From assembly GCF_006716905.1 (NCBI RefSeq), contig NZ_VFPV01000001.1, positions 735,501 to 799,500 of the forward strand: a stretch of DNA of 64,000 bases, given 5' to 3'. The number at the start of each line of letters is the position of its first letter. The stretch's first letter is position 1. This document shows positions 17,410 through 32,153 of the stretch, one piece after another. The notes beneath the pieces were generated by a model, which did no database searches, was not told the origin of the DNA, and worked only from the letters and a program-made list of their open reading frames with translations. A program made the translations under genes and the position numbers. This stretch comes from Acidovorax temperans (GTDB lineage: Bacteria > Pseudomonadota > Gammaproteobacteria > Burkholderiales > Burkholderiaceae_C).

Positions 17410-18114
17410 TTACTGCAGCACAGCCGATTCAATATCGTTCATCGCGGCGTGGCGCACGTCCTTGCCCTTGACCAGATAAATGATGAGTTCGGCCACATTT
17501 TTCGAGTGATCGCCAATGCGCTCAATGGCCTTGGCCAAAAAGAGCAGGTCCAGGCTGGCCGAGATGGTGCGGGGGTCTTCCATCATGTAGGTGACCAGCT
17601 TGCGCACAAACCCGTCGAACTCCTTGTCGATGAGGTCGTCTTCTTTCAGGATGTCCAGCGCCGCCTTGGTATCGAGGCGAGCAAAGGCATCGAGCGCCTT
17701 GCGCAACAGGCCGGAGGCAAGATCAGCTGCCATGCGCAGGTCGCTGGAGGGCAACGAACGGGCGGCACCGCTTTCGATGATGGACTTGACCATGCGGGCC
17801 ATCTTGTGCGCTTCGTCGCCCATGCGCTCCAGGTTGGCCGTGGCCTTGGAGAAGGCGATCAGCAAACGCAGATCGCGCGCTGTGGGCTGGCGGCGGGCGA
17901 TGATGGAGGAGAGTTCGTGGTCGATCTCCACTTCCATCGCGTTCACACGCTGCTCCATGGTGGCCACTTGTTCCACGGCTTCCATGCTGAATTGGGACAA
18001 GGCGTAAATCGCCTGGCGAATTTGCGACTCCACCAGGCCGCCCAGCTCCATCACGCGGGAAGAAACGCTGTTGAGTTCGCTGTCAAACTGGGTGGAGAGA
18101 TGTTTTTCTGGCAT
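17410..18114 (-). CDS. phoU: Phosphate signalling protein PhoU
   Basis: 234 residues, two PhoU three-helix repeats. Metal-binding type motifs are seen in EVEIDHELSSIIARRQP near residue 82 and ERIGDHSKNVAE near residue 204; NLERMGDEAHKMA is the repeat-one counterpart. It links the PstSCAB transporter to PhoR and keeps the regulon off in phosphate excess. It lies 9 bp after pstB, in the same operon. Confidence 0.97.
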   Translation of the reverse strand: MPEKHLSTQFDSELNSVSSRVMELGGLVESQIRQAIYALSQFSMEAVEQVATMEQRVNAMEVEIDHELSSIIARRQPTARDLRLLIAFSKATANLERMGDEAHKMARMVKSIIESGAARSLPSSDLRMAADLASGLLRKALDAFARLDTKAALDILKEDDLIDKEFDGFVRKLVTYMMEDPRTISASLDLLFLAKAIERIGDHSKNVAELIIYLVKGKDVRHAAMNDIESAVLQ

Positions 18115-18123
18115 GGTGTCTCC

Positions 18124-18909
18124 TCAGCCGAAACGGCCGGTGATGTAGTCTTCGGTTTCCTTGCGCTGGGGCTTGAAGAACATCTGCTCTGTTTCTCCAA
18201 ACTCCACCAGATCGCCCAGGTACATGTAAGCGGTGTAGTCGCTGCAACGCGCAGCTTGCTGCATGTTGTGCGTCACGATGACCACGGTGTAGTCGTTCTT
18301 CAGCTCGGCAATCAGCTCTTCCACCTTGGCGGTAGAGATCGGGTCCAGCGCCGAGCAAGGCTCGTCGAGCAGCAACACTTCGGGCTTGATGGCAATGCCG
18401 CGCGCGATGCACAGGCGCTGCTGTTGGCCGCCCGAGAGGCTGGAGCCGCTCTGGTTGAGCTTGTCCTTCACTTCATTCCACAGTGCCGCCTTGCGCAGGG
18501 CCCACTCCACGCGGTCATCCATGTCGGTGGCGTTGAGGCTTTCGAACAGCTTCACACCAAACGCAATGTTGTCGTAGATGGACATGGGGAACGGGGTGGG
18601 CTTCTGAAACACCATGCCCACCTTGGCCCGCACCAGAGCTACGTCTTGCTTGCTGGTGAGCAGGTTTTCGCCGTCCAGTACGATCTGGCCTTCAGCGCGC
18701 TGCTCGGGGTACAGCTCGAACATGCGGTTGAACGTACGCAGCAAGGTGGACTTGCCGCAGCCCGATGGGCCAATGAAAGCCGTGACCTTGTTTTCGGGGA
18801 TGTCCAGGTTGATGCCCTTGAGGGCGTGGAACTTGCCGTAATAGAAATTCAGATCACGTACCGTGATCTTGGCGTTGGCGGGAGCGGATGCTTGGATGGT
18901 GGAGGGCAT
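18124..18909 (-). CDS. pstB: Phosphate ABC transporter ATP-binding protein PstB
   Basis: 261-residue ATPase. Walker [10 protein letters not shown] is near residues 48-56, the signature [17 protein letters not shown] near residue 160, Walker [14 protein letters not shown] near 182, and the switch His in [12 protein letters not shown]. The start at 18909 is 15 bp after pstA. The protein drives high-affinity phosphate uptake with PstCA. Confidence 0.98.
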
Positions 18910-18924
18910 GAATGTCTTCCTTGT

Positions 18925-19806
18925 TTATTTCTGGCGGGTCAAGACGCGCGCCAGGATGTTGAGACCGAGAACCGCAACCGTGATCAGGAACACGCCGGCC
19001 CATGCCAGTTCCTGCCAGTTCTCATACGGGCTCATCGCAAATTTAAAAATCGTGACCGGCAAGCTGGCCATGGGCTTGGACAGGTCAGCATTCCAGAACT
19101 GGTTGTTGAGGGCCGTAAACAGCAAAGGCGCTGTTTCACCCGCAATGCGTGCCACAGCCAGCAACACCCCGGTGATCACGCCAGCGCGAGCGGCACGCAA
19201 GGTAACCATGGTGATGACGCGCCACTTGGGTGTGCCCAGGGCGTAAGCCGCTTCGCGCAGGCTGGCAGGCACCAGCAACAGCATGTTCTCGGTGGTGCGG
19301 ATGACCACCGGAATCACGATCAGCGCCAAGGCGAGAACGCCTGCGTAGCCTGAGAAGCTCTTGAAACGGGCCACCACCACGGCGTAGACGAACAGACCGA
19401 TCACGATGCTGGGAGCAGACAGCAGAATGTCGTTCACAAACCGGGTCGTGGCCGCCAGCCAGCTGCGCGACTCGTACTCGGCCAAGTAGATGCCGGCCAT
19501 GATGCCGATGGGCGTGCCCACGAATGTGGCCAGCAACACCATGACCACGGAGCCGAAGATCGCATTGGAGATACCGCCGACCTCATTGGGGGGCGGCGTC
19601 ATCTGCGTGAACAGCGCCACGCTCAGACCACCCAGACCCAGGCGAATCGTCTCCCACAAAATCCACACCAGCCAGAACACGCCGAACAGCATGGCGGCCA
19701 GCGACAAGGTCAAGGCGATCTGGTTGACACGCTTGCGGCTGTTATAGCGAGCCAAGCGCGTTTGCGACAGCTCTGCCGCAGAAATCAGGCGTTGAGAAGT
19801 ACTCAT
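18925..19806 (-). CDS. pstA: Phosphate ABC transporter permease PstA
   Basis: 293-residue inner-membrane permease with six predicted segments. The EAA-type coupling loop is [20 protein letters not shown] near residue 192. The start ATG overlaps the pstC stop as ATGA, so the permease pair is translationally coupled. Confidence 0.97.
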
Positions 19807-20828
19807 GAGCGCGCCCCTTCACCCTTCTTGAGCTGCGAGAGCAACAACTTTGACAAAGACAACACCACGAAGGTGATGAAGAAAAGAACCAGACCCAGGT
19901 AAATGAGCGAGGCCTGGTGGAGGCCCTCGCCAGCTTCTGCAAACTCATTGGCCAGCGCCGACGTGATGCTGTTGGCGGCTTCAAACACCGACAAGGAATC
20001 GAGCTGGTTCATATTGCCGATGACGAACGTCACGGCCATGGTCTCACCCAATGCGCGCCCCAACCCCAGCATGATGCCGCCGAGCACGCCAGTCTTGGTG
20101 AAGGGAAGCACCACCTTCCACACCACTTCCCAGGTAGTAGCACCCAGACCGTAGGCAGATTCTTTGAGAAGCGCAGGCGTGACCTCGAACACATCACGCA
20201 TCACTGACGCAATGAAGGGGATGATCATGATGGCCAGAATGATGCCGGCCGACAAAATGCCGATGCCCACCGGTGGGCCAGACACAAAAGCACCCAAATA
20301 CGGAATGCCGCTGAAAGCGGCTTGCAATGGCTGCTGCACAAAACGCGCCAGAATCGGGCCAAACACCATGAGCCCCCACATGCCATACACGATGGAGGGC
20401 ACCGCCGCCAACAATTCAATGGCTGTACCCAAGGGGCGCTTGAGCCAGGCGGGCGAAAGTTCTGTCAAGAAAAGCGCGATGCCGAAACTCACCGGCACCG
20501 CAATCAGCAAGGCAATGGCCGAGGTGGCCAGGGTGCCGTAAATCATCACCAGGCCGCCGTACTCATTTTGTACGGGGTCCCAGACGCTTCGGGTCAAAAA
20601 GCTCAGACCATATTTTTCAATCGATGGCCAGGCCCCAAGCACCAACGAGACAAGAATGCCAATCAGCAACAACAGGGTCAGCACGGCAGCGCCACGGGCC
20701 AACCAGCCAAAAATGCGGTCGGCCAGCATGCCGGAAATCAGGGGGCGTGGGCGGGGTGGAGTGGTCCGTTGAGCACCACGTTCCGCCTGAGACGGGGGGG
20801 TTTGCGGGACCGGCAAGATAGTGGACAC
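19803..20828 (-). CDS. pstC: Phosphate ABC transporter permease PstC
   Basis: 341-residue permease with a cytoplasmic Pro/Arg-rich N-terminus and six or more membrane segments. The coupling loop is [20 protein letters not shown] near residue 222. The start is GTG at 20828 with GAAGG upstream. A 67-bp gap with a hairpin separates it from pstS. Confidence 0.96.
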
Positions 20829-20862
20829 GTTGAGAGCCTTCTATGAACGCAATCAAGGGACT

Positions 20863-20883
20863 GGCCGGGCTCAATGCCCAGCC
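20863..20883 (-). promoter_or_regulatory. Hairpin in the pstS-pstC gap
   Basis: On the transcript GGCTGGG pairs with CCCGGCC (one G-U) around CATTGAG. There is no U-run. Such hairpins after a binding-protein gene commonly stabilise the upstream message and let pstS be expressed above pstCAB; that role is inferred. Confidence 0.5.
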
Positions 20884-20895
20884 AGCCCGCACAGA

Positions 20896-21936
20896 TCACT
20901 TGTAAGCGATAGCCTTGCCAGAAGTATCCTGGATGGCCGTCCAGGACTTCAGGATGGCTTCCTTCACGCTGTCAGGCATGGGCACATAGTCCAGATCAGA
21001 AGCTGTCTTGTCACCTGTCTTGTAAGCCCATTCAAAGAACTTCAACGATGTAGCAGCTTGCACAGGCTTTTCTTGTGACTTCTGCATCAGAATGAACGTA
21101 GCACCAGTGATGGGCCACGATTCCTTGCCAGGCTGATTGGTCAGGATCTGATAGAAGCTCTTGGCCCAATCAGCGCCCGCAGCGGCAGCCTTGAATGCGG
21201 AGTCATCAGGCGAAACAAACTGGCCTTCAGCATTTTGCATCTGCACGTAAGTCATCTTGTTTTGCTTGACGTATGCGTACTCCACATAGCCAATGGAGTT
21301 GGGCAGACGGCCCACAAATGCAGCCACGCCTTCGTTGCCCTTGCCACCCGCGCCGGTAGGCCAGTTCACAGCCGTGCCCTCACCCACTTTGGACTTCCAC
21401 TCAGCGTTTACCTTGCTCAGGTAGTTCGTGAAGATGAAGCTGGTGCCGGAACCGTCAGCGCGGCGAACCGGAGCGATCGAAGCGTCTGGCAGAGCCACGC
21501 CAGGGTTAAGCGCCTTGATCGCTGGATCGCTCCAGTTGCTGATCTTGCCCAGGTAAATGTCACCCAGCACTTGGCCGCTGAGCTTGATCTGACCAGGAGC
21601 AATGCCCTTGATGTTGACCACAGGCACAACACCACCGATCACCGTAGGGAACTGAACCAGGCCCTTCTTGTTCAGGTCTTCGTCCGTCAGAGGAGCGTCA
21701 GAGGCGCCAAAGTCCACTGTCTTCGCCTCGATTTGACGCAGACCAGCACCAGAGCCCACCGATTGGTAGTTGATCTTCACACCGGTGGCCTTGTTGTAAT
21801 CAGAGGCCCACTTGGAATACAGAGGGGCAGGAAAGCTGGCTCCCGCGCCTGTTGCCTCTTGTTGCGCGAATGCGCTGGAAAAAGCTCCTGCAGCAACCAC
21901 ACCGGCAACCAGAACTCGAATCGCGGACAGTTTCAT
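20896..21936 (-). CDS. pstS: Periplasmic phosphate-binding protein PstS
   Basis: 346 residues with a cleavable signal peptide ([20 protein letters not shown], cleavage after AFAQ). Binding motifs are [36 protein letters not shown] and [16 protein letters not shown], all standard for PstS. First gene of the pst-pho operon, 53 bp downstream of a Pho box. Confidence 0.98.
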
Positions 21937-23541: not shown

Positions 23542-25020
23542 ATGCAAAACGGAACACTGCTCGCCGCTGTGGATCTTGGATCCAACAGCTTTCGCCTGGA
23601 AATTGGCCGCTTCGAGCACGGTCACATACAACGTGTGGAATACCTCAAGGAAACCGTTCGCCAGGGCAACGGACTGGATGAAAACCGCAACCTGACGCAA
23701 GAAGCCATGGAGCGTGGATGGGCATGCCTCGCAAGGTTCGCGGAGCGACTGGCAGGCTTTCCCCGGGAGCATGTCCGGGCCGTGGCCACGCAAACCCTGC
23801 GCGAAGCACGCAATCGCGAGGAATTTTTGACACGCGGCAGCGCCCTTCTGGGCTACCCGATTGATGTGGTTTCGGGTGTGGAGGAAGCACGCCTGATCTA
23901 CCAAGGGGTGGCCCACATGCTGCCCCAGTCTGACGAACGCCGTCTGGTGGTGGACATCGGGGGACGCTCCACGGAGTTCATTCTGGGACAGCAGTTCTCA
24001 GCCAATGCCGTTGCATCCTACCGAGTGGGTAGCGTGGCATGGTCTTCGCGGTATTTTCCTGACGGAGCATTCACCCCGCAGGCCTTCCTGGCTGCAGAAA
24101 TTGCTGCCAAGGCGGTAATGGACGAAGCACTTTCCGTTTTCCAAAGAGATGCCTGGGAGGTTGCTTATGGATCTTCGGGCACAGCAGGTGCGGTTGGGGA
24201 CATCCTGACGGCCATGGGTGGCCCCAAAGGACTGATCACCCGAGCGGGGTTGAATGCTCTGCAAGAAAAGCTCCTGCGCGCCCAAAGTGCCGACCGCGTG
24301 CGCTTGGAAGGGCTAAAAGACGATCGACGCGCGGTGATTGGCGGGGGTATCAGTGTGCTCCGCGCCGTGTTTGATTTGCTCGAAATCGAAGAAATGCAAG
24401 TGGCTCAAGGAGCATTGCGCCAAGGCGCACTCTACGACTTGCTGGATCGCGAGCAACCGGAAACAGACCTGCGCACCGCCACCGTGAATGCGCTCATGCA
24501 GAGATTCGCAGTAGACACCGCCCATGCTGAGCGCGTGGCAGCCACGGCCTGCGCGCTGTTCAGGCAAGCCGCCGCCCCAGGCAGCGAAAGGGCCGAAAGA
24601 AAACTGGAGTGGGCAGCCAAGCTCCACGAAGTGGGGTGTCGTATTTCGCACAGCGACTACCACCGGCATGGCGCTTACATCCTGGACAACACCGATGCGG
24701 CAGGCTTTGCCTTGCCGGAACTGCACCGTTTGGGCATCCTGGTGCTGGGGCAGCGCGGCAAGGTGCGCAAGCTGGAAGCAGATCTTTCGGACGCCTCCTT
24801 TGCTTTGCAATTGATCTGCCTGCGACTGGCAGTAGCGCTGTGCCACGCCAGGCGCGCGCCCGACATCACAGAGATGCAGTTGCTCATGGAGCCAGGGACC
24901 TTCACCCTGAAGATACCTTCGCGATGGCCCCAGGCATTCCCGCAATCAGCGCATTTGTTGCAGGAAGAAATGGTGGCCTGGCAAAAAACGCCGTGGGAGC
25001 TGCGCGTGCAGGCTGATTGA
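23542..25020 (+). CDS. ppx: Exopolyphosphatase
   Basis: 492 residues, Ppx/GppA family, cleaving terminal phosphate from polyphosphate. The actin-like ATPase motif DLGSNSFRLEI is at residue 11, with ATQTLREARN and VDIGGRSTEF as the second and third phosphate loops. A C-terminal HD-like helical domain carries LHEVGCRISHSDYHRHGAYI. Start ATG 23542; the frame upstream (from 23488) is not family sequence. Its partner ppk1 lies 1.1 kb downstream on the other strand. Confidence 0.95.
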   Translation: MQNGTLLAAVDLGSNSFRLEIGRFEHGHIQRVEYLKETVRQGNGLDENRNLTQEAMERGWACLARFAERLAGFPREHVRAVATQTLREARNREEFLTRGSALLGYPIDVVSGVEEARLIYQGVAHMLPQSDERRLVVDIGGRSTEFILGQQFSANAVASYRVGSVAWSSRYFPDGAFTPQAFLAAEIAAKAVMDEALSVFQRDAWEVAYGSSGTAGAVGDILTAMGGPKGLITRAGLNALQEKLLRAQSADRVRLEGLKDDRRAVIGGGISVLRAVFDLLEIEEMQVAQGALRQGALYDLLDREQPETDLRTATVNALMQRFAVDTAHAERVAATACALFRQAAAPGSERAERKLEWAAKLHEVGCRISHSDYHRHGAYILDNTDAAGFALPELHRLGILVLGQRGKVRKLEADLSDASFALQLICLRLAVALCHARRAPDITEMQLLMEPGTFTLKIPSRWPQAFPQSAHLLQEEMVAWQKTPWELRVQAD

Positions 25021-25029
25021 TGCGAAGCT

Positions 25030-25060
25030 TTAAACGGTATAAACTGTTTATACCGTTTAA
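25030..25060 (+). promoter_or_regulatory. 31-bp perfect palindrome before the basic RHH-like gene
   Basis: Fifteen-base arms (TTAAACGGTATAAAC and its exact complement) flank a single central T. It starts 10 bp after the ppx stop and ends against the GGAG ribosome-binding site of the next gene. It contains TATAAAC, which could be a -10 box, so an operator over the promoter is plausible. The one-base centre favours protein binding to DNA over an RNA hairpin. Confidence 0.75.
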
Positions 25061-25070
25061 GGAGAATAAG

Positions 25071-25571
25071 ATGACTACTACGCCTGCGACAGCACCCGCA
25101 ATTGCTGACAAGGAGCCCGTCAAGGTGGCGAAGCCCGTCGCTGCGGCCAAGCCAAAGCACATTTCACCGGTCACCACGCAGCCCAAAGTTACCAAAGCAG
25201 CAAGCAGCAAGGTGACTACCGCCAAGAAGCCGTCGGTAGAAGCCAAGGAAAGTCCTGCCAAGGATGTGAAAGCCAAGAAGCCCAAGCTAGTGCGGGACAG
25301 CTTCACCATTCCCAAAGACGAATACGCGGTCATCGATGCTTTGAAAGAGCGCGCAGTGCGTCTTTCCCGCCCCGTCAAAAAAAGCGAACTGCTTCGCGCT
25401 GGACTGAAGCTGCTGGCAGGCCTTTCAGACACAGCGCTGTTTACCGCACTGGAGTCTGTGCCATCCATCAAGACCGGTCGCCCTACCAAAGAGCCAGAGG
25501 CCACAGCGCAAGTCAAGCCTGGCAAGGCAGCCGCCAAAGCCAAGGCTACATCCAAAGCGCGCTCGAAGTAA
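25071..25571 (+). CDS. Lys/Ala-rich protein with ribbon-helix-helix-like core, function unknown
   Basis: 166 residues; I do not recognise a named family. Residues 1-75 are Lys/Ala/Pro/Thr-rich and probably disordered. Residues about 78-130 look like a ribbon-helix-helix fold: a short strand (RDSFTIP), helix KDEYAVIDALKERAVRLS, then helix KKSELLRAGLKLLAGL. A second basic tail ends the protein (GKAAAKAKATSKARSK). This layout recalls histone H1-like proteins such as AlgP, which in Pseudomonas is linked to polyphosphate granules. It starts at ATG 25071 with AAGGAG and sits between ppx and sixA-ppk, directly behind a 31-bp palindrome. DNA binding and autoregulation are inferred. Confidence 0.75.
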   Translation: MTTTPATAPAIADKEPVKVAKPVAAAKPKHISPVTTQPKVTKAASSKVTTAKKPSVEAKESPAKDVKAKKPKLVRDSFTIPKDEYAVIDALKERAVRLSRPVKKSELLRAGLKLLAGLSDTALFTALESVPSIKTGRPTKEPEATAQVKPGKAAAKAKATSKARSK

Positions 25572-25693: not shown

Positions 25694-26155
25694 TCAAAGA
25701 TACTCCGGCGACTGCACTGTCATCAGCACGGTCTGGCTCTGCTCAAGGCGCTGCCGCTGGCGCAGCCACCACACCGCCCCCTTTCGCACAGCGCATTCTG
25801 GCGCTTGCATGCCCAGCAACTGCGCAATCACCTGCCCGAGCATAGGCTGATGGCCCACGATGAGAATCGAGCCCCGGGCGTTGGGCCACTGGGCCAAGTC
25901 GAGCAGGTCTTGCGCGGTGCCACCTGGCAACAGTTCTGCACGCATTTTGAATTTACGGCCTAGTGCGGCCGCGGTTTGCTCCGTACGGCGTGCAGGGCTT
26001 GCAATGACCCTCAGGCCTTCTGGCAACTGCCGATCCAGCCAAGCCGCCACCTTCGCCGCCTGCTTTTCACCGCGAGGGGTCAACGCACGGGTCAGGTCAT
26101 CCATGCCCTCACCCAGTTCTTCCGCTTCGGCATGGCGCCACAAAATCAGGTCCAT
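25694..26155 (-). CDS. sixA: SixA-type phosphohistidine phosphatase
   Basis: 153 residues of the histidine phosphatase superfamily. The catalytic motif reads LWRHAEAEE at residue 5 (RHA instead of RHG, as in SixA). The second catalytic region VGHQPMLGQVIAQLLG is near residue 105. The start at 26155 is 10 bp after ppk1; the longer frame to 26194 overlaps ppk. SixA removes phosphate from histidine on phosphotransfer proteins in E. coli; here its linkage to ppk is typical of Burkholderiales. Confidence 0.88.
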   Translation of the reverse strand: MDLILWRHAEAEELGEGMDDLTRALTPRGEKQAAKVAAWLDRQLPEGLRVIASPARRTEQTAAALGRKFKMRAELLPGGTAQDLLDLAQWPNARGSILIVGHQPMLGQVIAQLLGMQAPECAVRKGAVWWLRQRQRLEQSQTVLMTVQSPEYL

Positions 26156-26165
26156 TCGCGCTCCT

Positions 26166-28331
26166 TCATGCTGCAGCAGACGCTGCAGGGCCATAGCGCC
26201 CCATCAGCGCGTTCTGCGCCCCGCGCCCTGTCGTGGGATGTGGCGCCCGTTGGTACACACCATTGGCCGCCTGTGTCCAGGCATCGCGGTCATCGTGCAA
26301 ATAGGCCACCAAACACTCGTCAATGATCTGCTGGCGCAAGGCTGGATCGTTGACAGGCCACGCCAGCTCCACCCGCCGCATCATGTTGCGGTTCATCCAG
26401 TCAGCACTGGAAAGGTACAGGTCTTCTTGCTGAGCCACCCTGAAATAGAACACCCGGGTATGCTCAAGAAAGCGGCCAATCACGGATCGCACGCGGATGT
26501 TTTCGGTCAGGCCCGGAACCTGGGCGGCCAGCATGCAGGCGCCCCGCACAATGAGATCAATGCGGACGCCGCATTGCCCTGCCCTCACCAAAGCACGGAT
26601 CAAGGCCTCGTCCGTCAAGGCGTTCATCTTGACGACTATGCGCGCATCCTCGCCACGGCTGGCTGCCTGGGCCACTTGATCAATTTTTTCCAGCATGCGC
26701 CGCTGCAGATGAAAAGGCGCCAAGATCAGCTGGCGCAACTTGGGCGGACGATTCTGACTGGCCAGATGGCTGAAGACGCCATCCATGTCCGCAGTGATTT
26801 CCTCATCGGCCGTCAAGTAGCTCAGATCCGTATACAGACGCGCCGTGCGCACGTTGTAGTTGCCGGTAGATAGGTGCCCATACCTGCGTAAACGGTTGCC
26901 CTCGCGGCGGGTCACCAGCAGCATCTTGGCGTGCGTCTTCAACCCGACGACACCGTAGACCACCTGGGCGCCAACCGACTCCAACGCCTCCGCCCAGTTG
27001 ATGTTGGCTTCCTCGTCAAAACGCGCCTTGAGCTCCACCACCGCCATGACTTCCTTGCCCCTGCGCACCGCTTCCGCCAGCAACTCCATCAGTTCGGAAT
27101 CAGCACCCGTTCTGTAGATCGTCTGCTTGATCACCAGCACATGGGGGTCGTTCACCGCCTCGCGAAGGAACGCCAGCACCCCGTCAAAGCTCTCGAAGGG
27201 CTGGTGGATAAGCACATCCCGCTGACGCAATTGCTCCAGAATAGACACGCCCGATTGCAATTGGCGAGGCCATGAAGCGCTCCAGGGCGGGAACAGCAAT
27301 GCTGGATCGTTGACCAAATCCACCAACTGACTCAGCCGCACCAGATTGACAGGCCCAGGGACGCGAAACAGAGTAGCTGGTGGCAGCGCAAATTGCTCTA
27401 GCAAAAAGTCTGACAAAAAGGCGGAGCAGCCTGCCGACACTTCCAGGCGCACGGCCTGACCGTAGTGCCGTTGCTGCAGCCCTTGCCGCAAGGCGGTTCG
27501 CAGGTTGCGCACGTCTTCTTCGTCCAGCGCCATGTCTGAATGACGGGTCACACGGAACTGTGAAAACTCGGTCACTTCACGGCCAGGGAACAAATCATCC
27601 AGATGGGCGCGCACGATGCTGGACAGACTGACAAAGCACATGCCAGTCGGTGTCACCTTGTCAGGCAGACGGACCAGCCGCGGCAGGGAGCGAGGCACCT
27701 TCACAATGGCGACCTCGTTCTCGCGCCCAAAAGCATCAGGGCCTCGCAGGCGCACAATGAAATTCAAGGACTTGTTGGCAACCTGCGGGAAAGGATGGGC
27801 GGGATCCAGCCCCACTGGAATCAGGAGAGGACGTACCTCTTTTTGAAAGTACTCCTGCACCCACCGCCGCTGCACTGCGCTGCGCTCCCCGTGGGGAACG
27901 ATGCGAATTCCGTGGGCCGCAAACGACGGGCTCAATACGTCGTTGTACAGCGCATATTGACGCATGACCAGTTGGTGAACAGCTGCCGAAAGCGACTCCA
28001 GAGAAGCCGGGCTGTAGATGCCTTTGGTGTCACCGGTCTTGGCCGCCGTGACATGCGGGGCCACCCGCACCTCAAAAAACTCATCCAAGTTGGATGAAAC
28101 TATGCACAGATAACGCAGCCGCTCCAAAAGCGGCACGTCGGCACGCGCTGCCCAATCGAAGACACGTTCATTGAACGCCAGAATGCTCTGATCCCGATCC
28201 AAAAGCACAGGCAAAAGATCGGAAGCTTTACGGCTGGCCGCCGGCATACCTCCATCGCTCGACCCCCCTGCTTCCACCTCACCTTTGTCTCTGGGTTTAT
28301 TCAAGGGCTTGTCCAAGGGCAGAGGAAGCAT
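26166..28331 (-). CDS. ppk1: Polyphosphate kinase 1
   Basis: 721 residues; polymerises ATP gamma-phosphate into polyphosphate. The N-domain start reads LLDRDQSILAFNERVFDWA near residue 43. The phospholipase-D-like active site has YGHLSTGNYNVRTARLYTDL with the phosphorylated His, and SSADWMNRNMMRRVELAWP near the C-terminus. The ATG at 28331 has no clear Shine-Dalgarno, and the first 40 residues are not conserved, so a later start is possible. A Pho box lies about 50 bp upstream, inside the end of the preceding gene. Confidence 0.96.
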   Translation of the reverse strand: MLPLPLDKPLNKPRDKGEVEAGGSSDGGMPAASRKASDLLPVLLDRDQSILAFNERVFDWAARADVPLLERLRYLCIVSSNLDEFFEVRVAPHVTAAKTGDTKGIYSPASLESLSAAVHQLVMRQYALYNDVLSPSFAAHGIRIVPHGERSAVQRRWVQEYFQKEVRPLLIPVGLDPAHPFPQVANKSLNFIVRLRGPDAFGRENEVAIVKVPRSLPRLVRLPDKVTPTGMCFVSLSSIVRAHLDDLFPGREVTEFSQFRVTRHSDMALDEEDVRNLRTALRQGLQQRHYGQAVRLEVSAGCSAFLSDFLLEQFALPPATLFRVPGPVNLVRLSQLVDLVNDPALLFPPWSASWPRQLQSGVSILEQLRQRDVLIHQPFESFDGVLAFLREAVNDPHVLVIKQTIYRTGADSELMELLAEAVRRGKEVMAVVELKARFDEEANINWAEALESVGAQVVYGVVGLKTHAKMLLVTRREGNRLRRYGHLSTGNYNVRTARLYTDLSYLTADEEITADMDGVFSHLASQNRPPKLRQLILAPFHLQRRMLEKIDQVAQAASRGEDARIVVKMNALTDEALIRALVRAGQCGVRIDLIVRGACMLAAQVPGLTENIRVRSVIGRFLEHTRVFYFRVAQQEDLYLSSADWMNRNMMRRVELAWPVNDPALRQQIIDECLVAYLHDDRDAWTQAANGVYQRAPHPTTGRGAQNALMGRYGPAASAAA

Positions 28332-31330: not shown

Positions 31331-32153
31331 GGGCGTGTTGAGAATCAACGGGAGTTGATAACCCCAGCTGCGAGATAGATCATCGCTGCGAAGCTGCTAT
31401 CCGTCTTGTCGCTGCGCATTGCGATACGTTTGAACTCCTTGAGCTTGCAAAAGAAGTTCTCGATCAAGTGGCGCCATTTGTAGACCTCCAGGTCAATCTC
31501 CAGTGGCGCTCTCCTGCGGGGCATCTGTGAGATCACCACCTGCGCCCCGCGCTTACCCAACTCCTGGATCAGCCAATTCACATCGAAGGCCTTGTCGGCA
31601 AGCAAGGCATCAAAGCGCACATCGGCAATCAGCTCTCTGACCCCTTTGGTGTCGTGGCGCTGCCCTGGCATCAAGACGAACTTCACCAGATTGCCCAATG
31701 CATCCGTCAGCGCCAGTATCTTCGTGGTCATGCCGCCCCTCGAGTGGCCTATGGCCTGGCCCGAAGTCCCCCTTTTGCCCCCTGGCCGTGCCGATGCACT
31801 TTCACAATCGTGGCATCCACCATCGCATATTCCATGTCCGGCTGCTCGCTCACTGCATCGAACAGACGTTGGAACACATCGGCCTTAACCCAGTCTCTAA
31901 AGCGTTTGAACACCGTGTTCCACTTGCCGAACTCTGGCGGCAGGTCTCGCCAGGGGCTGCCTGTGCGGGCAATCCACAGCACTGCCTCAACGAAGCGGCG
32001 GTTGTCTGTGCCGCTGCGTCCAGGATCACTTGGCTTGCCAAGGCATTGAGGCTCCATCTTGGCCCATTGCTCGTCTGTCAGTACCCATCGAATGCTCATG
32101 CGCCTATTGCATCACATCCTTTCACACCTCTCAGAATGATTCTCAACAGGCCC
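31331..32153 (-). mobile_element. IS5-family insertion sequence, 823 bp
   Basis: Ends are near-perfect inverted repeats: GGGCGTGTTGAGAATCA at the left and GGGCCTGTTGAGAATCA (reverse complement) at the right, 16 of 17 matching. A TA duplication flanks it (31329-31330 and 32154-32155). It carries one transposase split in two frames, oriented towards the OlsB-like operon. Confidence 0.92.
31345..32099 (-). CDS. IS5-family transposase, two frames joined by frameshift
   Basis: DDE transposase of the IS427-like group. The first frame starts MSIRWVLTDEQWAKMEP at 32099 and stops at 31749. The second frame covers the rest, with MTTKILALTDALGNLV, MPGQRHD and the conserved YKWRHLIENFFCKLKEFKRIA motif, ending at 31345. 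The slip is expected at A4G5 (opposite 31768-31776), where a -1 shift continues AKGG into TSGQAIGHSRGG. That is normal for this group, so the element need not be broken. Confidence 0.9.

Follow-up and report, generated by a model that had tools for sequence, protein, structure and literature searches.

Repressor sites commonly cover the −10 element and the start site of a promoter. The met boxes are tandem 8-bp palindromes, ParG is a ribbon-helix-helix (RHH) protein, and proteins of the ParG/omega type combine a flexible basic tail with tandem sites. The metJ gene is described as being among the genes repressed by MetJ (PMC3274233), and AmrZ is described as an RHH protein that represses its own gene and acts as a dimer of dimers (PMC3325190). 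Other proteins are connected with intracellular bodies. PhaM is presented as a tether between PHB granules and the nucleoid (PMC3556143), and in granule tethering of the PhaM/PhaF/PhaH type, as it is described, a basic or DNA-binding segment ties the storage granule to the nucleoid (PMC3556143, PMC13052382). PhaR is described as a repressor sequestered on PHB granules (PMC12542648), and McdA and McdB as spacing carboxysomes on the nucleoid (PMC13052382). For polyphosphate, AlgP of Pseudomonas is one positioning factor named in PMC13052382; the H1-like AlgP of Pseudomonas aeruginosa, linked to polyphosphate granules, is described with a 154-aa C-terminal KPAA domain (PMC9239181).

Taken singly, RHH proteins that repress their own genes, operators made of tandem boxes, granule proteins with basic tails, repressors titrated by granules, and pairings of ParA with an RHH protein all have precedents; these five features combined in one polyphosphate-tied family were not found in the open-licence literature that we searched. 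In the titles and abstract openings of those open-licence papers, no RHH protein tied to polyphosphate was found, and the papers naming both RHH and polyphosphate dealt, among the matches listed, mostly with toxin-antitoxin systems. Here, we analyze a protein encoded in a 64,000-nucleotide stretch of Acidovorax temperans DNA, the whole of which is called the window. The protein is probably self-regulating and may hold phosphate granules to the chromosome, and it bears on the question of how polyphosphate granules are sensed and positioned in bacteria.

Organization of the locus

From left to right, the window carries a phoU-pst-like cluster, ppx on the plus strand, a palindrome, a gene for a 166-aa protein on the plus strand, and sixA-like and ppk1 genes on the minus strand, with which the 166-aa gene is convergent. 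The earlier note on this DNA, made from the sequence alone, had placed between ppx and sixA-ppk a 166-residue protein with an RHH-like core between basic tails, and the ORF together with the Pfam and NCBIfam assignments of its neighbors bore this out; the 31-bp perfect palindrome that it had noticed after the ppx stop was confirmed by the full complementarity of the arms.

23542-25020, plus strand: ppx, exopolyphosphatase/Ppx-GppA (Pfam PF02541, E 3.5e-74; PF21447, E 1.2e-34); alternative start, GTG 23488; stop, TGA 25018-25020
25017-25022, plus strand: TTGATG, a candidate −35 hexamer that overlaps the stop codon of ppx; spacing to the candidate −10, 17 bp
25030-25060, no strand: 31-bp palindrome; arms 25030-25044 and 25046-25060, 15 nt, 100% complementary, 1-nt center
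25032-25040, no strand: putative operator box 1, AAACGGTAT (9-bp period test)
25040-25045, plus strand: candidate −10 hexamer TAAACT, at the box 1/box 2 junction
25041-25049, no strand: putative operator box 2, AAACTGTTT (9-bp period test)
25050-25058, no strand: putative operator box 3, ATACCGTTT (9-bp period test)
25071-25571, plus strand: gene for the 166-aa basic-tailed RHH-like protein (ORF from ATG)
25694-26194, minus strand: SixA-like histidine phosphatase (His_Phos_1, PF00300, E 6.1e-12)
26166-28331, minus strand: polyphosphate kinase 1, ppk1 (four PP_kinase domains in Pfam; TIGR03705, 867 bits)

Nine base pairs lie between the ppx stop and the palindrome, and an SD-like AGGAG precedes the 166-aa gene. 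On the SixA-like protein, TIGR00249 scored 68.8 bits, under its cut-off of 74.5. Upstream of ppx, minus-strand ORFs at 17410-21936 read from the ORF list as PhoU-, PstB-, PstA-, PstC-, and PstS-like, which makes the window a phosphate-uptake and polyphosphate neighborhood. The same list holds, at 31345-31731 and 31749-32099 (minus strand), two adjacent ORFs that resemble the halves of an IS5-type transposase, with a glmM-like gene on one side and an unnamed ORF on the other. In the window's own genome, CHAD was not found and PPK2 was found in three places.

An RHH-like core between basic tails

The core of the protein (VRDSFTIPKDEYAVIDALKERAVRLSRPVKKSELLRAGLKLL and on) spans ∼75 residues, residues 66 to 142, between an N-terminal tail of 68 aa (66% K/A/P/T) and a C-terminal tail of 28 aa after GRP, and the pI is 10.3. 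Tails are basic across the family, with a mean net charge of about +11 over up to 62 residues in the 85 of 101 loci that could be parsed (16 were dropped, and the tails of short proteins may overrun the true start). An AT-hook-like KTGRP stands at residues 134 to 138, and KxGRP, which we take to approximate an AT-hook core, follows the third helix in 73 of the 85 parsed loci. An AlgP-type C-terminal KPAA-repeat domain (∼150 aa) is not present, the window protein having just the 28 aa after GRP.

In an alignment of 12 of the 39 distinct cores, from which the most divergent (L040, lacking RDS, KKSE, and GRP) was left out, the invariant columns include the strand residues R, D, S, and T, the KKSE of helix 2, and KxGRP. 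The invariant R, S, and T alternate with V/F/I-type residues ahead of helix 1, an arrangement that we take to be an RHH strand with outward polar residues, and KKSELLR presumably corresponds to RHH helix 2. The full-length AlphaFold model has helices at 82-97, 104-116, and 120-129 and low-confidence tails, and a model of the core (mean pLDDT, 86.3) has helices at 17-32, 39-51, and 55-63; the two helices that follow the strand region in RHH proteins are thus present in the core model, with the third helix, 55-63, in addition. DSSP assigned no strand to the monomer core model, as would be the case for a strand that forms only on dimerization.

The window protein matched no Pfam or NCBIfam family up to E 10, the RHH models of Pfam included; both collections presumably include models of MetJ and PhaR. 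The core rows had no match in PHROGs, and their sole Pfam match, DnaB_bind (3 of 12 rows; best E, 0.0013), was not taken as meaningful. A PDB profile search returned ParD-1 weakly, at E 1.5. When Foldseek was run with the core model, RHH proteins, which we take to be ParD1, Rv0300, Reg576, and ParD2 (twice), occupied 5 of 12 rows (ranks 1, 2, 4, 7, and 9), with an insignificant best E of 2.7; with the full-length model there were four matches, all insignificant and none to an RHH protein. Of the six matches with Z ≥ 2, five were RHH proteins, all weak (best Z, 4.2). The structure alignments drew on 42 of the 75 parsed full-length proteins and on 39 core segments, in addition to the window protein. 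The protein is thus RHH-like and basic-tailed, its family is not catalogued, and it is likely a member of the RHH superfamily.

Tandem 9-bp boxes over a promoter-like element

In distant homologs, the palindrome is broken and a 9-bp period is kept, with a unit AWACNGTWT of which each copy is self-complementary and varies independently of the others. The palindrome is therefore more aptly treated as a tandem row of three self-complementary boxes of 9 bp each, at 25032-25058. We scored the stretches upstream of 101 order-wide homologs for three AWACNGTWT boxes, with a threshold of at least 19 matches out of 24. At a period of 9, the threshold was reached upstream of 58 of the 101 homologs, a test that is not fully independent because the consensus derives from the genus plus a first look at other loci. 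Other periods (6, 7, 8, 10, 11, and 12) reached the threshold in 0 to 3 upstream stretches, and the controls did so in 2/99 downstream stretches, 1/2,020 first-order shuffles, and 0/1,000 random genomic windows. Outside the window's own family, boxes were found in 50 of 92 loci, and 19 of the 23 families have at least one locus with boxes upstream of the gene. The remaining 43 homologs fall under the threshold, which counts against the explanation that we favor below. One locus (L262), which gave no tblastn core, was excluded from the box, tail, and looser linkage counts, leaving 101 instead of 102.

Boxes occur at 39 of 57 loci linked to polyphosphate genes and at 19 of 44 unlinked loci; their presence at loci with no polyphosphate neighbor indicates that they belong to the RHH-like gene and not to ppx. 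At five f38 loci (L234, L235, L239, L240, and L247), the boxes are followed, ahead of the Shine-Dalgarno sequence, by a short inverted repeat rich in GC (similar to GCCGC..GCGG), which is possibly a leader hairpin.

The candidate −35 and −10 hexamers of the window form a promoter-like element that is visible only across many box-aligned loci: a generic promoter scan of the window found none, the candidate −35 being under its threshold. A TTG stands 16 to 17 bp before the TAWACT of the box 1/box 2 junction at 22 of the 58 box-bearing loci, the next commonest spacing being seen at 5 loci. In the named-contig set, taken from the best 80 of 388 relatives, the TTG peak lies at 17 to 18 bp (27/73), and two more peaks (14 loci at 27 bp, 8 at 41 bp) are attributed to the conserved ppx end. 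The view that the boxes over this element constitute a MetJ-like operator for self-repression is well supported by the comparison, and we regard self-repression through the boxes as very probable. The proposal of the earlier note that the protein is an autoregulated DNA binder has accordingly gained good comparative support, from boxes recurring in most families and lying over a promoter-like element.

Distribution of the gene and its boxes

We surveyed 60 genomes, the window's own included (36 of the genus and 24 of other genera), and found a homolog in 39 of them, i.e., 34 of the 36 genus genomes and 5 of the 24 others. All 30 loci that were fetched, again with our own, have ppx, sixA, and ppk matches around the gene. 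Searched genome-wide with up to 3 mismatches, the box pattern is present in 34 of the 36 genus genomes and absent from the two (G002 and G017) that lack the homolog, in which ppx and sixA are kept and a short junction holds neither gene nor boxes. The palindrome is not due to chance, since 34 of 36 genus genomes carry it and the other two are precisely those without the gene; the pairing of gene and palindrome in other genomes, which the earlier note had named as a possible refutation, thus held within the genus.

A single site was found in 33 of the 34 site-bearing genus genomes, our own among them, and two were found in G033. In G025, gene and site are on separate contigs, with the gene at a contig edge. 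The second box array of G033 (L279, 3237-3263) has 3 mismatches and lies near a transposase-like ORF with no obvious target gene; it is perhaps a remnant. A regulon reading was rejected on the strength of the single site in our own genome and in 33/34 site-bearing genus genomes.

Order-wide, the family (E ≤ 1e-5) was found in 96 of 399 sampled genomes and 49 of 165 genera, and class-wide in 9 of 369 genomes, two of which belong to the window's own family. Eleven plasmid records have a match and phage records have none, an absence by which a phage origin was rejected.

Polyphosphate genes in the neighborhood

For linkage, we examined 102 loci over up to ∼6 kb on each side (∼3.5 kb for two loci, and less on some short contigs). 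At least one of ppx, ppk1, sixA, and CHAD, the last described as a polyphosphate-binding domain (PMC6537752), was found within ∼6 kb of 57 of the 102 homologs, representing 13 of 23 families and 55 of 95 genomes, and at none of 40 recA control loci, which were hand-chosen from 60 genomes and not random. This is the stricter of two counts, the looser one being 58/101. The gene orders vary: ppx>RHH>sixA<ppk< (f1, f26), sixA<RHH>ppk< (f25), RHH>phoU>ppx> (f15), RHH>..sixA<ppk< (f8), ppx>..sixA<CHAD<RHH> (f38), CHAD ∼1.5 kb off (f21, f32), and others. Among chosen representatives, Pfam identified CHAD in four, Ppx and a SixA-like phosphatase in one each, and, adjoining one copy, an OmpR/PhoB-type regulator. 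Linkage at 57 of 102 loci in several gene orders, against 0/40 for recA, makes the polyphosphate link look real, and we consider a role of the protein in polyphosphate biology likely. This estimate rests on linkage and is weakened by the 45 homologs with no ppx, ppk, sixA, or CHAD detected within ∼6 kb, all eight f5 copies among them, which count against it. The link suggested by the earlier note consequently stands for the neighborhood, seen in several arrangements, and does not extend to these 45 copies.

Several further surroundings were noted. On Comamonas aquatica plasmid p1_SCLZS63 (L320, 3860-4309), a homolog annotated as a hypothetical protein directly follows arsA, arsB, arsC, and arsH, arsenate being a phosphate analogue. 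On Aquabacterium olei plasmid pTB101 (L321, 3683-4210), a homolog adjoins a gene annotated as a phosphate transport regulator, beside which lies a gene for a PEP/pyruvate-binding protein. Two 4.1-kb contigs of one genome (L197 and L203 of G364) share a like layout, each with an RHH gene and a CYTH-CHAD gene, and represent either a duplication or an assembly artifact. Other recurrent neighbor clusters include proteins that read as GGDEF/EAL-type, hybrid-kinase-type, and ABC-ATPase-type.

ParA-type ATPase genes

A ParA-type ATPase gene was found at 14 of the 102 loci, within ∼1.1 kb at 13 and at 6 kb at the 14th. None was found at the 40 recA loci, the 34 genus-search loci, or the 80 named-contig loci (the best 80 of 388 relatives), and ten ParA-type queries gave 0 tblastn matches in the window at E 1e-6. 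Four of five ParA-type proteins scanned matched Pfam CbiA/AAA_31, the fifth being a fragment with no match. The gene is divergent and 0.3 to 1.1 kb upstream of the RHH core at seven loci in six genomes (L178 and L193 of f26; L196, L197, and L203 of f21; L199 and L228 of f5). In f26, the ParA-type and RHH genes are both inside the ppx-sixA-ppk locus, and the three f21 loci also have CHAD. At six loci the neighbor is codirectional; most of the RHH proteins there match the family weakly (E 1e-7 to 1e-22; L248, 2e-26) and may be true partition proteins. At the 14th locus (L267, f15), the ParA-type gene is directly ahead of a CYTH-CHAD gene, 6 kb from the RHH gene.

In the window's own genome, a single close ATPase is encoded at G000:C2:1085604-1086209 (identity to the query, 42%), in surroundings that look unrelated by reading (kefB-, RhtB-, and MaoC-like genes), and a second, weak match lies on C6 (E 6.8e-12). 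A close ATPase is present in 34 of the 36 genus genomes. In 80 genomes that were hand-chosen and not random, it occurs in 44 of the 60 with the RHH gene and in 11 of the 20 lacking it; G017 has the ATPase without the RHH gene, G031 the RHH gene with no ATPase match, and G002 neither. These counts, with G017 and G031, show that the ATPase is no strict partner of the RHH gene, and we consider it unlikely that it is a partner of the RHH-like protein at all. The ParA-type neighbor at 14/102 loci nevertheless suggests granule positioning, though it is not beside the window gene.

Discussion

Comparison between genomes supports the existence of the family, the boxes over a promoter-like element, the near-universal single site in the genus, and the polyphosphate neighborhood. 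From these we infer dimerization, repression, polyphosphate binding, granule tethering, and titration, in the following way. The protein would be a dimeric DNA-binding protein of the RHH type with disordered basic tails. A row of dimers on the three tandem 9-bp boxes, over the −10 and the start site, would repress the gene's own promoter, as MetJ does on met boxes. The lysine-rich tails would bind polyphosphate and, nonspecifically, DNA, and protein seated on granules would tie them to the nucleoid in the manner of AlgP or PhaM. Accumulating polyphosphate would then pull the protein off its operator, so that synthesis would track the amount of polymer, much as for PhaR on PHB. Judged part by part, direct binding of polyphosphate and DNA by the tails, argued from charge and from AlgP and PhaM, is evenly balanced between likely and unlikely, and competition of polyphosphate with the operator, for which PhaR is the precedent, is a tentative suggestion. 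The joint proposal of self-repressor, tether, and titration is nearly balanced, tipping slightly toward doubt. That the protein links polyphosphate and nucleoid, as the earlier note proposed, is a reading by analogy with the AlgP tail composition, to which the ParA-type neighbors at 14/102 loci are added; the same neighbors count against the joint proposal insofar as a positioning or partition role lies outside its statement.

An autorepressed tether of the AlgP or PhaM kind, whose operator holds the level constant with no titration by polyphosphate, would explain the same conserved boxes and polyphosphate linkage, and the basic tails with their AlgP and PhaM precedents fit it equally. Nothing speaks against it directly, and it differs from the joint proposal solely in the competition between polymer and operator; we consider it unlikely. 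A wider scheme would make the protein a cargo adaptor and level sensor, with tails that hold the polymer, a polymer that competes with the operator, and an orphan ParA-type ATPase (the one at G000:C2:1085604-1086209, gene-adjacent in other families) that spaces granules on the nucleoid as McdAB does carboxysomes. This we find distinctly unlikely.

An RHH protein of the ParG/omega or McdB kind might mark a cargo, polyphosphate granules or DNA, that a ParA-type ATPase spaces along the nucleoid. ParG represses its own gene and offers a precedent for autorepression. The 14 loci with a ParA-type gene, against 0/40 for recA, the divergent placement within ∼1.1 kb at seven of them and the codirectional one at six, the f26 copies inside the ppx-sixA-ppk locus, the f21 copies with a CHAD gene, and the close ATPase elsewhere in our own genome (G000:C2:1085604) all favor such a pairing. 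Yet none lies near the window gene or at the 34 genus-search loci or the 80 named-contig loci (the best 80 of 388), many genomes that lack the RHH gene carry the ATPase (11/20, with 44/60 when the RHH gene is present), G017 and G031 are mismatched, and weak family members make up most of the codirectional cases. We judge this reading improbable.

A role confined to transcriptional control of nearby phosphate genes (ppx, sixA-ppk, pst), with no part in granules, would suit a core of DNA-binding type among phosphate and polyphosphate genes. The window site, however, is 3′ of ppx and far from the ppk start, 33 of 34 site-bearing genus genomes have a single site, and the boxes follow the RHH gene where no polyphosphate gene is near, which makes this reading very improbable. 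An orphan RHH autorepressor, antitoxin-like or of plasmid type and beside polyphosphate genes by historical accident, finds some favor in the nearest folds, weak as they are (antitoxins of the ParD and VapB types and Reg576, a plasmid regulator), and in the 11 matching plasmid records. Linkage in 13 of 23 families with differing gene orders and a control of 0/40 argues against accident, and no phage record matches; we rate this reading as highly improbable. No toxin gene lies beside the window gene, whose neighbors are ppx and sixA-ppk1. The reading of the palindrome as a terminator or unrelated repeat, and of the protein as devoid of a DNA-binding role, would fit a site directly after ppx but is scarcely credible with no T-run or terminator match there and with boxes that track the gene away from ppx and are single copy in 33/34 genomes; the terminator reading was rejected.

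A conserved, operator-bearing, basic-tailed protein in the polyphosphate locus of many Burkholderiales would be a second positioning candidate beside AlgP. It offers a putative 27-bp operator for in vitro testing, G002 and G017 represent natural absences of gene plus operator, and the ParA-type neighbor in some families makes the positioning hypothesis testable.

Among described systems, AmrZ resembles the window protein in its RHH fold, autorepression, and joining of dimers, all predicted or proposed here; it differs in its two half sites with a 5-bp linker and its several targets and is not known to have comparable basic tails. Partition proteins of the ParG/omega type have in common with the family an RHH-like core, a basic tail, and tandem sites, with a ParA-type neighbor at 14/102 loci, and McdAB offers the parallel of spacing along the nucleoid; unlike these systems, the window gene and the genus loci have no ParA-type gene and lie in a polyphosphate neighborhood instead. 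PhaM, PhaF, and PhaH share the granule-nucleoid tethering that we propose, with PHB in place of polyphosphate and with other folded domains. PhaR represses phasin genes, whereas the only conserved site here is that of the gene itself; the proposed logic, in which a storage polymer takes a repressor off DNA, is the same. AlgP, which we compared by description only, shares a Lys/Ala/Pro-rich basic tail and a polyphosphate context, but the main basic tail of the window protein is N-terminal, its folded part is RHH-like, and it has its own putative operator. Finally, MetJ differs in that the boxes here are 9 bp (AWACNGTWT), with one site and no regulon in nearly all genus genomes, and in the long basic tails of our protein; the predicted RHH-type core, the tandem self-complementary boxes over a promoter-like element, and the proposed repression of the protein's own gene are what the two have in common.
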